Shown: positions 6,878 to 60,299 of the stretch, one piece after another
Position numbering within the stretch: the stretch's first letter is position 1
How the letters are laid out: every line of letters starts with the position of its first letter
NCBI RefSeq assembly: GCF_015169395.1
Contig: NZ_CP063458.1
Location: 5,580,001-5,644,000, forward strand
Length of the DNA stretch: 64,000 nt
Direction of reading: 5' to 3'
Source of the DNA: Humisphaera borealis
GTDB taxonomy: Bacteria; Planctomycetota; Phycisphaerae; Tepidisphaerales; Tepidisphaeraceae
Made by a program: the position numbers and the translations under genes
The notes under the pieces: model-generated
What the model saw: the letters and a program-made list of their open reading frames with translations, nothing else
Databases searched by the model: none
Told to the model about the DNA's origin: nothing

Positions 6878-7864
6878 TCACTTGCCCGTTGTTGGCGTTG
6901 CCCCGGACGATTCCGCGGGCACAGCGGCGGGCATCAGCTTGAGGTCGGTCGCCCACTCCACAAACCGCTGATGCCATGTGCCGAAGGGGATGCCCTTGCG
7001 GGGCGAGATTGCTCCGCCGTGCGCACCAGCACCATAAATGTGCATCTCGATGTTCAGCGGCTTGGGCTTCATCGACTTACCGACCTCGAACAATGCGTTG
7101 TAGAACTCCACCGTCTGCTTGGCGTGGAAGACATCGCCGGTTCCAGCGCACACCAGGAATGTCGGCGGCAAGTCCTTGGGGACATTGCTCAGATCGAGCG
7201 ATCCGGGAACCCAGCCGGGGTAGACCAGCACCACCCAGTCGGGCCGCGAGCTGACGCGATCGATCGGATCGGCTGCATCGGCCTTGCCGGCGTCGAACGT
7301 CAACACAATCCGTGCGGTCTGCTCGCCGCCGGCCGAAAAGCCCATGTGCCCGATCTTGTTCGGGTCAATGTTCCACTCTTTGGCGTTGGCGCGGACCGTT
7401 CGGATGGCTCGCTGCGTATCCAGCAATGCGTCCGTCGCCGATCCGTACGGCTTGAGCCGGTAGCGATGGACGAAGCAGGAGACGCCGACCGAGTTAAACC
7501 AGGCGGCGATGTCGGTGCCCTCCGGGCCCACGTTGCAGGTGTTGTTCCCGCCGCCGGGCGAGAGGATGACCGACATCCCGTTGGCCTTGTCTGGCGGGGC
7601 CAGATAGAGCTCGATTGACGGGTTGTGAATGTTGGTGACGGCCGACACGCGACCACCGCCGGTGTTGAACTTCTCCTCCTGGTCGGAGCCCGGGCCGGCC
7701 TTCAATGCAGGATGTCCCGGCGGAAACAGCGCAACAACCTTGTGGCCCGCCGTCAGCGGCTTGGGTTCCAATAGCTTCACTGGCGCGTCCGCACCGGCCG
7801 CGACCGAGTGGGCGAACGTCGCGAAACCGACTGTCAGGCCGATCAGGCCAATGGTGTACCGCAT
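6878..7864 (-). CDS. Secreted alpha/beta hydrolase, acetyl-xylan-esterase-like
   Basis: The start at 7864 (MRYTIGLIGL) is chosen because it opens a signal peptide and is preceded by a GGAGAGGA ribosome-binding site about 9 bases upstream. The mature protein of about 305 residues has an oxyanion-hole-like SPGGGN segment, the nucleophile elbow GFSAGG, an acid-containing VCAGTGDVFH segment and a C-terminal GAGAHGG with the probable catalytic His. This order matches the BD-FAE/COG0657 esterases that deacetylate carbohydrates. It is the third of three tandem minus-strand exported esterases. Confidence 0.88.
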   Translation of the reverse strand: MRYTIGLIGLTVGFATFAHSVAAGADAPVKLLEPKPLTAGHKVVALFPPGHPALKAGPGSDQEEKFNTGGGRVSAVTNIHNPSIELYLAPPDKANGMSVILSPGGGNNTCNVGPEGTDIAAWFNSVGVSCFVHRYRLKPYGSATDALLDTQRAIRTVRANAKEWNIDPNKIGHMGFSAGGEQTARIVLTFDAGKADAADPIDRVSSRPDWVVLVYPGWVPGSLDLSNVPKDLPPTFLVCAGTGDVFHAKQTVEFYNALFEVGKSMKPKPLNIEMHIYGAGAHGGAISPRKGIPFGTWHQRFVEWATDLKLMPAAVPAESSGATPTTGK

Positions 7865-56147: not shown

Positions 56148-56411
56148 CACCACGGAGGCACTGAGACACGGAGGGCAGCCTGGGGAATGACACACATCTG
56201 TCATCCTGAGGTACTCCGAAGGACCTGGTAACGAAGGCCGAAGCACGATTCGAACGCCGTCACGCCCTCGCCGGCCGAGCGGTCAACGAACATTGTTTCG
56301 GCTTCGATACAAGGTCCTTCGGAGTACCTCAGCATGACAATTGAGAGCAGGTTCGCGAACGTCACATTGTTCGCCAGGTTAGCCTCCGTGTCTCCGTGCC
56401 TCCGTGGTGAT
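56148..56411. repeat. Nested palindrome of two dispersed repeat families (about 264 bases)
   Basis: The outer arms (56148-56175 and 56384-56411) are inverted copies of the CCTCCGTG repeat also found at 34092. The inner arms (56200-56227 and 56313-56340) pair at 27 of 28 positions and contain GAGGTACTCCGAAGGACCT. The middle has further weak pairing. It lies between the exported two-lobed protein's stop and the ResB-CcsA start. Confidence 0.9.
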
Positions 56412-56426
56412 CCCTCTTCTACAGTC

Positions 56427-57626
56427 TTATTTTCCAAACTCGACCGATTTCAGAAACTGATTGAACGCGTCCTTCTGGGCGGCCACCAGGCCGGCGTCGC
56501 CGATGATTTTGAAGAAATAGACGTCCGGGCCGCGCTCGCCGAGCGTAATGAACATCCGCTTGGTCGGTTCCTTGTCGTTCGGGCCGACGAACTCGAAGAG
56601 GTACGCTTCCTTCCCCGAGATCGTTACCTTGGGGATCTCTTTCTCGTTGATCTCGGCGATCGGCTGCGCACCCACCTGAGCCCGCCAGCGGTTCACATTC
56701 GCCAGCAGTGGCCCGATGTTGCCTGCGCCCAGCTTTAATACGGACACCTCGGCCTGTTTTTCACCGTCTTTCACGAAAAACGTCATGACGCGCATCATTC
56801 GTGGCGTCTTGTCTTCCGTCCAACCCTTGGGGGCGACGTACTTGGTGACCTTCTCGCCTTCGTCGGCCAGCAGGGTTGGCAGGGTCAGATTCGCGTTTTG
56901 CGTGATCGCCTGCACGGCCGAGAGGGCAGGGGCGGCGATCAATGCCGCAAGGCCGTCCATCGTCCCCGGCACGCGGCTCTGGGGCGCGCCGAAGCGGACC
57001 GACTTGATAAACAGATCGAAGTTCTCCTTCTGTGCCGCGACCTGATCGTCCGGCCCTTTGAGCTTGAAGAACCAGATCTGCCGGCCGCGATCGACCATTG
57101 CGGCGAGGGTGCGGAGCTTCGGCCCGCCGGGCGTCGGCCCGGGGCCGGCCAGGTCGACGACCTGACCCGGCGTTCCGCCGAAATCCTGCGTGCGGACGAG
57201 CGACTTCAGCTGCTCGGCCGACGAATGGGTCATTCCCACTTCGCCTTCCCAGCGGTTGATGTTCTCCAGCAGGGGCTGCGGCGGACCCAGTGGGATGACA
57301 GTCAGCACCAGTTCCGGGTTCTTTTCCGAGACCGAAATCGTCGCAAATCGCATCGTCGACCCGCCGGGCACCTGCTTCCAGCCCGATGGCAGGGCCCAAG
57401 TGGGCGCGTTGGGGTCGGCGGCGGGCTTGTCGGCGACGGCGGGTACCACCGAAGACGCCAGCGCCGGCTGCGGAGCGGCGGCCGTATCGGCCTTGGGCGC
57501 GTCGTAAGCCCTGATGTCTTCATGCTCTTTGCAACCCAGCCCGGCCAACATCGACACAGAAACGGCCGATGCCAGGATCGCGGGGCGAACGGCGGCGAGA
57601 GCGCGAGCGGTAGCAAATCTATGCAT
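56427..57626 (-). CDS. Exported two-lobed protein with internal duplication
   Basis: The start at 57626 (MHRFATARALAA) gives 399 residues and a signal peptide. An imperfect lipobox (LAGLGC, Cys32) suggests a lipoprotein. An Ala/Pro-rich spacer follows, then two homologous halves. Each runs from WxxPSGWK or PKGWTED-type starts, through VTVIPLG...LLENINRW and VSVLKLG...LLANVNRW, to AAQKENFDLFIKSVRFG and AAQKDAFNQFLKSVEFGK. So the gene arose by duplication. The function is unknown. It lies upstream of ResB-CcsA on the same strand. Confidence 0.8.
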   Translation of the reverse strand: MHRFATARALAAVRPAILASAVSVSMLAGLGCKEHEDIRAYDAPKADTAAAPQPALASSVVPAVADKPAADPNAPTWALPSGWKQVPGGSTMRFATISVSEKNPELVLTVIPLGPPQPLLENINRWEGEVGMTHSSAEQLKSLVRTQDFGGTPGQVVDLAGPGPTPGGPKLRTLAAMVDRGRQIWFFKLKGPDDQVAAQKENFDLFIKSVRFGAPQSRVPGTMDGLAALIAAPALSAVQAITQNANLTLPTLLADEGEKVTKYVAPKGWTEDKTPRMMRVMTFFVKDGEKQAEVSVLKLGAGNIGPLLANVNRWRAQVGAQPIAEINEKEIPKVTISGKEAYLFEFVGPNDKEPTKRMFITLGERGPDVYFFKIIGDAGLVAAQKDAFNQFLKSVEFGK

Positions 57627-57848: not shown

Positions 57849-59159
57849 TTAGACCGCGTTCGCGTTGCGGGTTCGGGCGGCCTCTTCCCGCTCGCGCTGC
57901 CTGCGGCGGCGTTCTGCCTGGCGCTCCTCTTCGTGCAGTTCCCACGCCCAGTTGAACTCCGTGTGATGGACGCGCTGCAACCGGCCGAGCCGCCAGCACA
58001 CGCCGTGCGCGAGATACACACAGATGCACAGCAGCGGCATGGCAATCAGACCGCGGGCGAGCAGGCCGGCGGTGAAGTTGCCGATCTTCGACCCGCCGAT
58101 GAGGGGATCGATGTAGTTCACCCCCAGCGCCGTCCAGAGGTAGAGCGGCACAAGCGGAACGGTGATCAGCGCCAGCCGCCAGTAGGCCCAGCCGCAAACC
58201 CGAATGACGCGGAGAACACGATCGGGTCGGAGGTTCGCCAGCGTATTGCTTCCGCAGGCGCATAGCAGAAGGGCCGGGAAGACCAGTCCGCCGAACATCA
58301 GTCCCCCTGACAGCAGGATCCGGCGGGATTCATCGCTGTCGGCCAGCCGCAGGAGCAATGTCATTGGCAGGTAAGCCAGCGTGTATGCGACGATCGCCCT
58401 GAGCAGGGGGGCAAAAACGTCCTCAGAGAACGAGCCGTTACGGAGGGGTCGCGGCAGATCGTCGCGCTGTTCTTCTCCGGTGTCGAAGATCGTGTTCGCG
58501 TAGTGCGCCAGGACGAGCCAGAAGAGTAGGTTGAATGGCCAGGCGGGGATATCGATGCCGCCCGCCTTCTGGAGAACCGCCAGAAAATACCGAACGAAGA
58601 AGTCGACAATCGTCGCGCACAGGTGTGCGAACCAGATCACCACCATGACGAACGCATTGCCCGGCGTGAACAGTTCCATCCAGACGGAGGTGCGCGGGGC
58701 GAAGCTCGTCTTCCCCGGCGTCGCATAGCCGACCGTCGGCGGGCCAGACCTGCCGAGCGGGCCGAGGGGGACGGCCGGGATCGGTGCTTCACGCCGAATC
58801 TCAAGGGGATCGAGGCGTTCGCCGGTCTCGGGGTCGTAGCGCGGTGCCGGCCGCGACGGCGGCGGGGCGATCGGGGCCAGGTCGATCGCCTCCGGAAGCG
58901 TGCGGTTGTCGATCTCTTCGCCAGCGTCATCGACCCGCCGTCGGCCGAAGGACCGGACCAGACCCGCAAGCCGGTCGGCCTCCTCCCGTTCAACGACCGG
59001 TTGGACCGCGTGTGTACCGTCGGGGCGGAGATTGGGCAGATCAGACAGCAGCGGCACGGACGCCAGCCAGCCACAGGTGGGACATTGGATCTCGCCGCCG
59101 GCGAGGTCGGACGGAACGGACAGTTCCTCGCGGCAGTTGTTGCAGGGGAAAGTGATCAA
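57849..59159 (-). CDS. Zinc-ribbon multi-pass membrane protein (DUF4013-like)
   Basis: This 436-residue protein has an N-terminal zinc ribbon (CNNC at residues 6-9, CPTC at 26-29), then a Pro-rich acidic linker of about 120 residues. Five or six membrane helices follow (FVMVVIWFAHLCATIVDFF, WPFNLLFWLVLAHYANTIF, IVAYTLAYLPMTLLLRL, GLVFPALLLCACGSNTLANL, WRLALITVPLVPLYLW, LIAMPLLCICVYLAHGVCW). The C-terminus is Arg/Glu-rich and charged. It resembles DUF4013 proteins in layout. The function is unknown. Confidence 0.82.
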   Translation of the reverse strand: MITFPCNNCREELSVPSDLAGGEIQCPTCGWLASVPLLSDLPNLRPDGTHAVQPVVEREEADRLAGLVRSFGRRRVDDAGEEIDNRTLPEAIDLAPIAPPPSRPAPRYDPETGERLDPLEIRREAPIPAVPLGPLGRSGPPTVGYATPGKTSFAPRTSVWMELFTPGNAFVMVVIWFAHLCATIVDFFVRYFLAVLQKAGGIDIPAWPFNLLFWLVLAHYANTIFDTGEEQRDDLPRPLRNGSFSEDVFAPLLRAIVAYTLAYLPMTLLLRLADSDESRRILLSGGLMFGGLVFPALLLCACGSNTLANLRPDRVLRVIRVCGWAYWRLALITVPLVPLYLWTALGVNYIDPLIGGSKIGNFTAGLLARGLIAMPLLCICVYLAHGVCWRLGRLQRVHHTEFNWAWELHEEERQAERRRRQREREEAARTRNANAV

Positions 59160-59271
59160 GTGGGTGAGATTGTAACGTCAGATGGTACGACGCTCGGCGC
59201 TGATTCATCTTCTTCTGGTCGAAGTTCGGCGTTCGGTGTTCAGCAAACCGATGCTGAAACGTCCAGATAGG

Positions 59272-59308
59272 AACATCGAACATCGAACGCCCAACATCGA
59301 ACATCGAA
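59272..59308. repeat. Two 16-base copies of AACATCGAACATCGAA
   Basis: The unit occurs at 59272-59287 and 59293-59308, five bases apart. It is internally repetitive (ACATCGA twice). It lies between the zinc-ribbon gene and the terminator at 59350. Confidence 0.85.
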
Positions 59309-59346
59309 TCAGTGGAAGTTTGTCTTGTGTCGGCGTGCACCTCACC

Positions 59347-59393
59347 AAAACCAGAAGGCCCACGAAGTGACTCGCGACGTCACCGCGTGGGCC
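59347..59393 (-). terminator. Strong minus-strand intrinsic terminator
   Basis: On the minus strand GGCCCACGCGGTGAC (59393-59379) pairs with GTCACTTCGTGGGCC (59371-59357) around a seven-base loop, with one mismatch. It is followed by TTCTGGTTTT (59356-59347). This is a classical Rho-independent terminator for a transcript that comes from the right. Confidence 0.82.
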
Positions 59394-60170
59394 TGGCTCC
59401 GGGTTACCGTTCGATGCGGCTTCCCGATGTCGGCGGCTTCCGCCGCCTGTTCTGGTCTCGGACCGGTTCTACTGGCAACCTGCTCCCGGCCTGGCACTCG
59501 CCCCGGTCCGCTCGGCCGGGTCGGCGTCGTGAGACGACGACCCGACGGACGGTATGACCGCGACTGTTTCCGCCGCGGCCGCTCACCCAACGGGGTGGCG
59601 TGGCGATGTGCCGTACTGGACGGCCGTGGGATTTCGCGTGCGGCACGCGCTGGGGCGATAGAAGCCTGTTCGGTTTGACCCGTCGAGGCAGCACACCGCC
59701 TTAACACGCCCGCCGGAAGAGTTACTTCCGTTCCCGGACCCATTCCTAGGATCAGGCGTCATTCACCGGCCGTTACCAGCCGGCTGCGACACCCTGGGCC
59801 CGACGCCCGCTCGACGGAGGGATTTCCCCTCGCGGGAGCTGAAGCGCCACTGGCGGCGACGTTAACCCGGATTGCCACTAAGAGCCTTTTAAAGCCCATC
59901 AGTTACGGGTAGCCAAGGGGGCCGTGATGGCACGTTCCGCACGACAGCTTTCGCCGCCGCGCGTTGTTGCCACAAGGGCCCCTCACGTCGCAGGCCGCCG
60001 ACTCCCGCCCTGCCCGCACTCGGTTGCTTCGCAGGGTCTTCCGCGTAGGGGAAGCCGGACTTGGTATTTGGGAGCGTTCTCCGATTTCGCCGGTCGCTTT
60101 CGCGTCCGACGACGAAGGGAAATATACGCGCGGCAGTCTCATCCGGCCTAAAGAAACCGCTCACACGAAA
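59394..60170 (-). ncRNA. Possible structured non-coding RNA, unknown class
   Basis: About 780 bases with no convincing protein-coding frame lie upstream of a strong minus-strand terminator. Small stems are visible, such as CGGAAG-TAACT-CTTCCG and CCGGC-TGGTAAC-GGCCGG. A possible promoter sits near 60175-60205 on the minus strand (CTGAAC, 17 bases, TAAGTA). I compared it by eye with the conserved cores of RNase P RNA, tmRNA and SRP RNA and saw no match. The frames present are Arg/Pro/Ser-rich with no family. It might be an unknown RNA, an untranslated region, or a decayed gene. Confidence 0.35.
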
Positions 60171-60299
60171 TTTACTTATCCACCGGTTGTTGCAAGTTCA
60201 GAAAAGGCGTTGATTTGAGCGGTGGAGAACGCGGTGGAGAAGCCGTCCGAGTCGGCGAGAGAACCGTAAAACATCGTCGTAGACGCCTCTGGAATCTCA

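Follow-up and report, generated by a model that had tools for sequence, protein, structure and literature searches.

What lies on the minus strand between positions 60170 and 59347 of the analysed window, a stretch of 64,000 nucleotides from the single 7.19-Mb contig of the Humisphaera borealis genome? An earlier note on this DNA had seen no convincing gene across about 0.8 kb, a minus-strand terminator at its end, and possibly a structured RNA, perhaps of an undescribed class. The first of these observations was borne out, as a protein gene was absent by every test applied. Open frames on the minus strand reach 133 aa at most, and the two longest had no match to any protein family in Pfam. 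Gap lengths within the RNA, compared pairwise between homologues, were overwhelmingly not multiples of three in every species pair, and the reading frame is therefore lost between species. With neither a kept frame nor a family match, a protein-coding gene was rejected. Folded as a single strand, the RNA region reached -424 kcal/mol, which is 6.1 standard deviations below dinucleotide shuffles. The minus strand from 60238 to 59347 is an independent noncoding RNA gene with predicted transcription, its start having been moved upstream to approximately 60238 because conserved promoter elements lie there. Judged from its sequence, the locus is almost certainly a real, undescribed structured RNA gene with a predicted transcript.

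A DNA search of 100 relatives yielded homologues in four further genera of the same family (genomes G007, G014, G020 and G021). With the GTGGATAA box and the tail taken as limits, the five RNAs measure 630-837 nt, and they share 66-80% identity over aligned columns. This conservation runs from the promoter through the terminator, and in almost every pair the flanks outside the gene scored no higher in local alignment than shuffled sequence, the exceptions being G007 and G014, which align on the AMMECR1 side, and two other pairs with marginal scores.

The fold of the RNA was assessed on the transcribed part of the five-sequence alignment, for which alifold gave -438 compared to -302 ± 9 in column shuffles (z approximately -15). 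A model of 147 pairs was assembled from the alifold structure by removing weak pairs and adding one helix (alignment columns 709-716/754-761) and one pseudoknot, both detected by searching exhaustively for helices that show compensatory change. The model pairs 97.1% of the alignment cells, versus 89.9% in shuffles and 35-44% when partners were slid. Changes on both sides were found in 39 of the 147 pairs and in 55 cells, as against 18.3 ± 2.9 pairs and 21 cells after shuffling, and 500 shuffles produced no value this high. Since the same alignment had contributed to the model, an independent helix control was added: helices of at least six pairs, canonical in all five species and with at least two compensatory pairs, numbered five in the real alignment and 0.017 per shuffled alignment. 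The sole control helix with seven pairs and three compensations was the pseudoknot GGCAAUC/GGUUGCC, which appears as AGCAAUC/GAUUGCU and GGCAGGU/ACUUGCC in other species; all seven pairs form in all five species, and an equal helix arose in none of 60 column-shuffled alignments. The pseudoknot crosses P16, a helix which covaries as well. The P1 outer stem, P5 and P7 are invariant, as is the terminator hairpin save for one G-U change, and because these show almost no variation among only five sequences, their pairing is a prediction. The homologues thus conserve one secondary structure with strong covariation, as is characteristic of structured noncoding RNAs, and together with the missing protein and Rfam matches this supports the structured RNA suggested in the earlier note.

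All five genomes also share an ordered promoter module, consisting of CACCG boxes at -111 and -99, TTGC at -68, GGTGGATAA at -56 to -58, TATA[T/G]T and helix P1 (coordinates in Table 1). Across 111 bp these distances vary by no more than 1-2 bp, even though the linkers are unrelated in sequence. A promoter had been proposed at 60175-60205; that interval does hold a conserved element, TTGCAACAACCGGTGGATAA (60195-60176), but the core -10 is placed by our analysis at TATATT. As the spacing between the two is fixed, TTGCAACAACCGGTGGATAA is better read as a putative upstream activator or operator site and TATATT as the putative core -10, an assignment made more plausible by a TATAAT identified by eye at a comparable place at the RNase P gene of the same genome. 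Transcription would then start a few bases past the -10, at approximately 60113-60116. The promoter is probably activator-dependent, with predicted activator or operator sites upstream of the -10, since TATATT is preceded by conserved boxes at constant distances and no -35 is present. Even where it could not pair completely with the left box, the GGATAA box is retained, which speaks for putative protein-binding DNA rather than an RNA stem. Within the 1.26 Mb of the host genome scanned, neither a second copy of the module nor one of TTGCAACAACCGGTGGATAA turned up, and the RNase P and tmRNA genes do not share this promoter. A reading of the TTATCCACC-like boxes as DnaA boxes of an origin was rejected, as the dnaA-type genes are located at 390 kb and 1.06 Mb, and the four copies of TTATCCACC seen in 464 kb, versus two expected, are close to the background frequency. 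The two host genes in question carry a DnaA C-terminal domain (G000:C1:390139-390345 and 1059792-1059998; L096 and L097).

Table 1. Positions in the window of the features assigned to the RNA gene and its promoter
Feature	Position	Strand	Observation
Direct repeat TCCACCGCGTTCTCCACCG, a pair of CACCG boxes spaced 12 bp	60220..60238	-	Every one of the five genomes: -111/-99 from TATAxT (-112/-100 here)
Element TTGCAACAACCGGTGGATAA, made up of TTGC and an inverted CGGTGGATAA box	60176..60195	-	All five genomes: TTGC -68/-69, GTGGATAA -56 to -58, relative to TATAxT
Putative -10, TATATT	60121..60126	-	TATA[T/G]T at same position in five genomes, 8-14 bases upstream of P1
Large structured noncoding RNA (predicted), ~770 nt here	59347..60116	-	Homologues in G007, G014, G020, G021; alifold z ~-15; 39/147 pairs with compensatory change
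P1 hairpin, UCGUCG/CGGCGA, inner stem with GAAA tetraloop	60087..60112	-	Helices 1-2; one inner pair covaries
P2/P3 domain, CCGGCUUCC/GGGAGUCGG around CCCUGC/GCAGGG	59997..60060	-	Helices 3-4; compensatory changes in both
P5/P6 domain, ACCCG/CGGGU, bears pseudoknot 5' strand	59865..59910	-	Helices 7-8; helix 7 invariant, pairing predicted
Pseudoknot strand 1, GGCAAUC	59870..59876	-	Partner 59474-59480; 7 bp, three compensatory
Pseudoknot strand 2, GGUUGCC, within P16 loop	59474..59480	-	Same pairing test as strand 1
P10, GGGCCC/GGGUCC, inner hairpin P11	59736..59801	-	Helices 14-17; compensatory changes
Invariant UCCUAGGA on P10 3' side	59751-59744	-	Unchanged in five genera
Variable insertion, approximate limits	59634..59730	-	By alignment also in G021 (shorter); absent from G007, G014, G020
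P13 and P14 hairpins	59556..59599	-	Helices 20-21
P15 hairpin	59512..59549	-	Helix 22; strongest covariation, 9/14 pairs
P16, CGGACCGG/CCGGUCCG, closes loop with pseudoknot strand 2	59459..59510	-	Helix 23; 8/8 pairs in all, two compensatory
Terminator-like hairpin, invariant UCGCGA loop core	59357..59393	-	13/14 pairs never vary
Tail TTCTGGTTTT	59347..59356	-	0-1 changes across five genomes

At the other end of the gene, the terminator noticed earlier proved to be a real hairpin, kept nearly letter for letter in five genera. It reads GGCCCACGCGGTGAC-GTCGCGA-GTCACTTCGTGGGCC on the minus strand (59393-59357), with 14 pairs and one mismatch, followed by TTCTGGTTTT. Its U-run is imperfect, and the hairpin was missing from the output of a simple terminator scan. 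Each RNA-bearing genome contains one exact copy, to which G020 adds one match with three mismatches, and no copy was found in the 21 family genomes without the RNA. Both arms are conserved beyond the need of termination, which suggests a second role for the hairpin, possibly in protein binding or loop-loop dimerisation.

Comparison with known RNA families was equally negative here and in the four relatives. At the gathering score, Rfam matched only two tRNAs in the whole window, 51 kb from the RNA; permissive filters on the RNA region gave no meaningful match, and the relatives gave none at the gathering score or in a permissive scan. Bacterial type A RNase P RNA (RF00010) and tmRNA (RF00023), both named as checks in the earlier note and comparable to this RNA in that these stable housekeeping RNAs, too, have promoters of their own, did not match the region and are located at 5985777-5986313 and 716728-717113 of the genome, respectively. 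Models of ROOL, GOLLD, OLE, HEARO and the other large RNAs in Rfam matched neither the window nor the four relatives. The RNA is thus a new family among the large structured bacterial RNAs, newness being judged against the Rfam 15 models. It resembles ROOL and GOLLD in size (approximately 600-850 nt), in a multi-domain fold with pseudoknots, in its patchy occurrence, in being noncoding and in carrying a variable insertion inside an otherwise conserved frame. Unlike these, it is chromosomal, has no tRNA island or phage context, and was seen in one planctomycete family only; it was not found in the viral, phage and plasmid collections. OLE RNA, which is linked to OapA, is likewise a long structured chromosomal RNA, but the RNA described here has no Rfam match and no membrane-protein partner gene conserved nearby across species. 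By description, it can also be likened to the smtA motif ('Soda Lake RNA', HRC-65-1), a noncoding RNA of more than 350 nt found only in Thioalkalivibrio upstream of smtA, in that both are large, confined to a narrow lineage, strongly covarying and of unknown function (PMC11109978).

The RNA was present in five of 26 genomes of the family, and in two of the 13 of good quality. A covariance model built from its 3' domain (R1) found a single copy in each of the five carriers (E 1e-35 to 1e-43) and no match in the other 21 family genomes, which represent the entire order sampled and include several draft assemblies as well as the sole same-genus genome, 65% complete. No match was obtained among the remaining members of a 397-genome sample of the class or, this genome excepted, among 392 genomes sampled from the phylum. 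When 84,980 species genomes were scanned with an exact pattern (CCCACGGCCGTCCAGT, 0-1 base, CGG), the four known relatives were recovered together with twelve chance matches, which the model rejected; the relatives with a matched public record (JAICTV, JAICIO, DBZL and PMAK) are metagenome bins assigned to Phycisphaerae or Phycisphaerales. The RNA was not found in phage, plasmid or viral collections, where candidate viral copies were discarded because two contigs share merely an 18-nt piece of the hairpin and a third has no profile match. A search for divergent copies next to AMMECR1 in other family members found none. A RecA tree favoured neither loss nor transfer as the origin of the patchiness, and G007 gave no true RecA match. 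The distribution is narrow, patchy and lineage-restricted, and the function of the RNA is therefore dispensable.

The genes surrounding the RNA vary as well. AMMECR1 lies upstream and divergent in G007, G014 and G020 only, a GH57 gene takes its place in G021, and AMMECR1 was not found in this genome; the AMMECR1 genes of other family members have no RNA beside them. In two RNA-carrying genera, AMMECR1 adjoins a CofH/MqnC-type radical SAM gene (L020 6654-8737; L021 9897-12303). Downstream, the five genomes carry T2SSE, DUF1275, an S13 peptidase, a convergent Fe-S protein and, here, a zinc-ribbon-like membrane protein, and no protein partner gene conserved beside the RNA was found. The membrane protein gene (window 57849-59159), whose N-terminal zinc-ribbon-like segment is a weak Pfam match below the cut-off, adjoins the RNA here and not in the relatives. 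Short ACATCGAACATCGAAC-type repeats lie just downstream of the RNA (window 59235-59310), outside its conserved part, and look like dispersed intergenic elements. Intergenic frames that resemble one another, with peptides such as HPEVLRG and RYSEGS, occur at window 56200-56430 and at 7700-7830 and 10480-10600 of L023, which suggests a dispersed repeat family common to this genome and the genus of G021.

In the probable course of events, a dedicated promoter would drive the gene and the terminator hairpin would end the transcript, which folds into several hairpin domains, with the loop-to-loop pseudoknot locking the 5' half to the 3' half. The tertiary fold would most likely enable the RNA to act in trans, scaffolding an RNP or an RNA-RNA complex. 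What the computations show is conservation, the secondary structure, the pseudoknot, the promoter spacing, frame loss and varied neighbours; transcription, termination and trans action are what we infer. We are fairly confident of the overall reading, i.e. a large RNA gene with its own promoter and terminator that acts in trans via its fold, encodes no peptide and does not control a neighbour. With some reserve, we favour a role as an architectural or RNP RNA. Only tentatively do we propose a new architectural class confined to one planctomycete family, which might form a kissing-loop RNA-only multimer or the core of an unknown RNP under a rigidly spaced activator-type promoter.

A special case of the architectural RNA would be a homo-oligomerising cage or dimer in which symmetric kissing loops join copies, as OLE, ROOL and GOLLD form symmetric RNA-only complexes partly via such conserved loops (PMC12286853). 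The size and pseudoknotted multi-domain fold do resemble the ornate RNAs with palindromic kissing loops (PMC12286853), the UCGCGA loop and the palindrome UCCUAGGA are invariant in five genera, and the excess conservation of the terminal hairpin would fit. However, chance alone would be expected to produce palindromes this long in an RNA as large as this one, so the two by themselves are no evidence of multimers; moreover, the RNA matches none of the three families in Rfam and is linked neither to phage nor to tRNA, and we regard this special case as unlikely. Less probable again is an antisense or sponge RNA that pairs with mRNAs or other RNAs via exposed conserved loops. Invariant unpaired stretches such as GAUCCUAGGA and the UCGCGA loop could serve that purpose, but 63% of paired columns are invariant compared to 46% of unpaired ones, and the compact pseudoknotted fold is unlike that of short trans-acting sRNAs.

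The patchy occurrence in the family and the partly different neighbourhoods could also point to what is left of a mobile element or of an intron-like ribozyme of the group II intron, retron or HEARO type. This is very improbable, given that each carrier genome has a single copy, that Rfam matches no intron, that the neighbours tested include neither a reverse transcriptase nor an endonuclease, that the RNA keeps a conserved promoter of its own and that three genera share an AMMECR1 neighbour. It is no more credible that the RNA controls the downstream gene in cis, as a leader of the long-riboswitch or attenuator type: that gene is on the same strand in four of the five genomes and here begins approximately 190 bp past the hairpin, but the downstream genes are unrelated to one another and the next gene in G007 is convergent, and such differing neighbours argue strongly against a dedicated cis-regulator. 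A short peptide gene concealed in GC-rich DNA, for which the open frames would leave room, has a negligible probability, as these lack a Pfam match, most indels shift the frame in each species pair and substitutions track base pairing.

Together, the observations favour an architectural or RNP RNA in a group that the general surveys of new structured RNAs consulted hardly cover. Planctomycetes are unmentioned in the main text of the recent surveys of new bacterial RNAs among these, and a survey from 2010 lists one ambiguous Proteobacteria/Planctomycetes motif, Rhodopirellula-1. Elaborately folded bacterial noncoding RNAs above 500 nt are few, and the ones characterised to date (ribozymes, RNA cages and membrane-associated RNAs) have brought surprises. 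Thanks to clear covariation, a pseudoknot, defined ends and a family that apparently has cultured members, the transcript, structure and partners of this RNA are directly testable.
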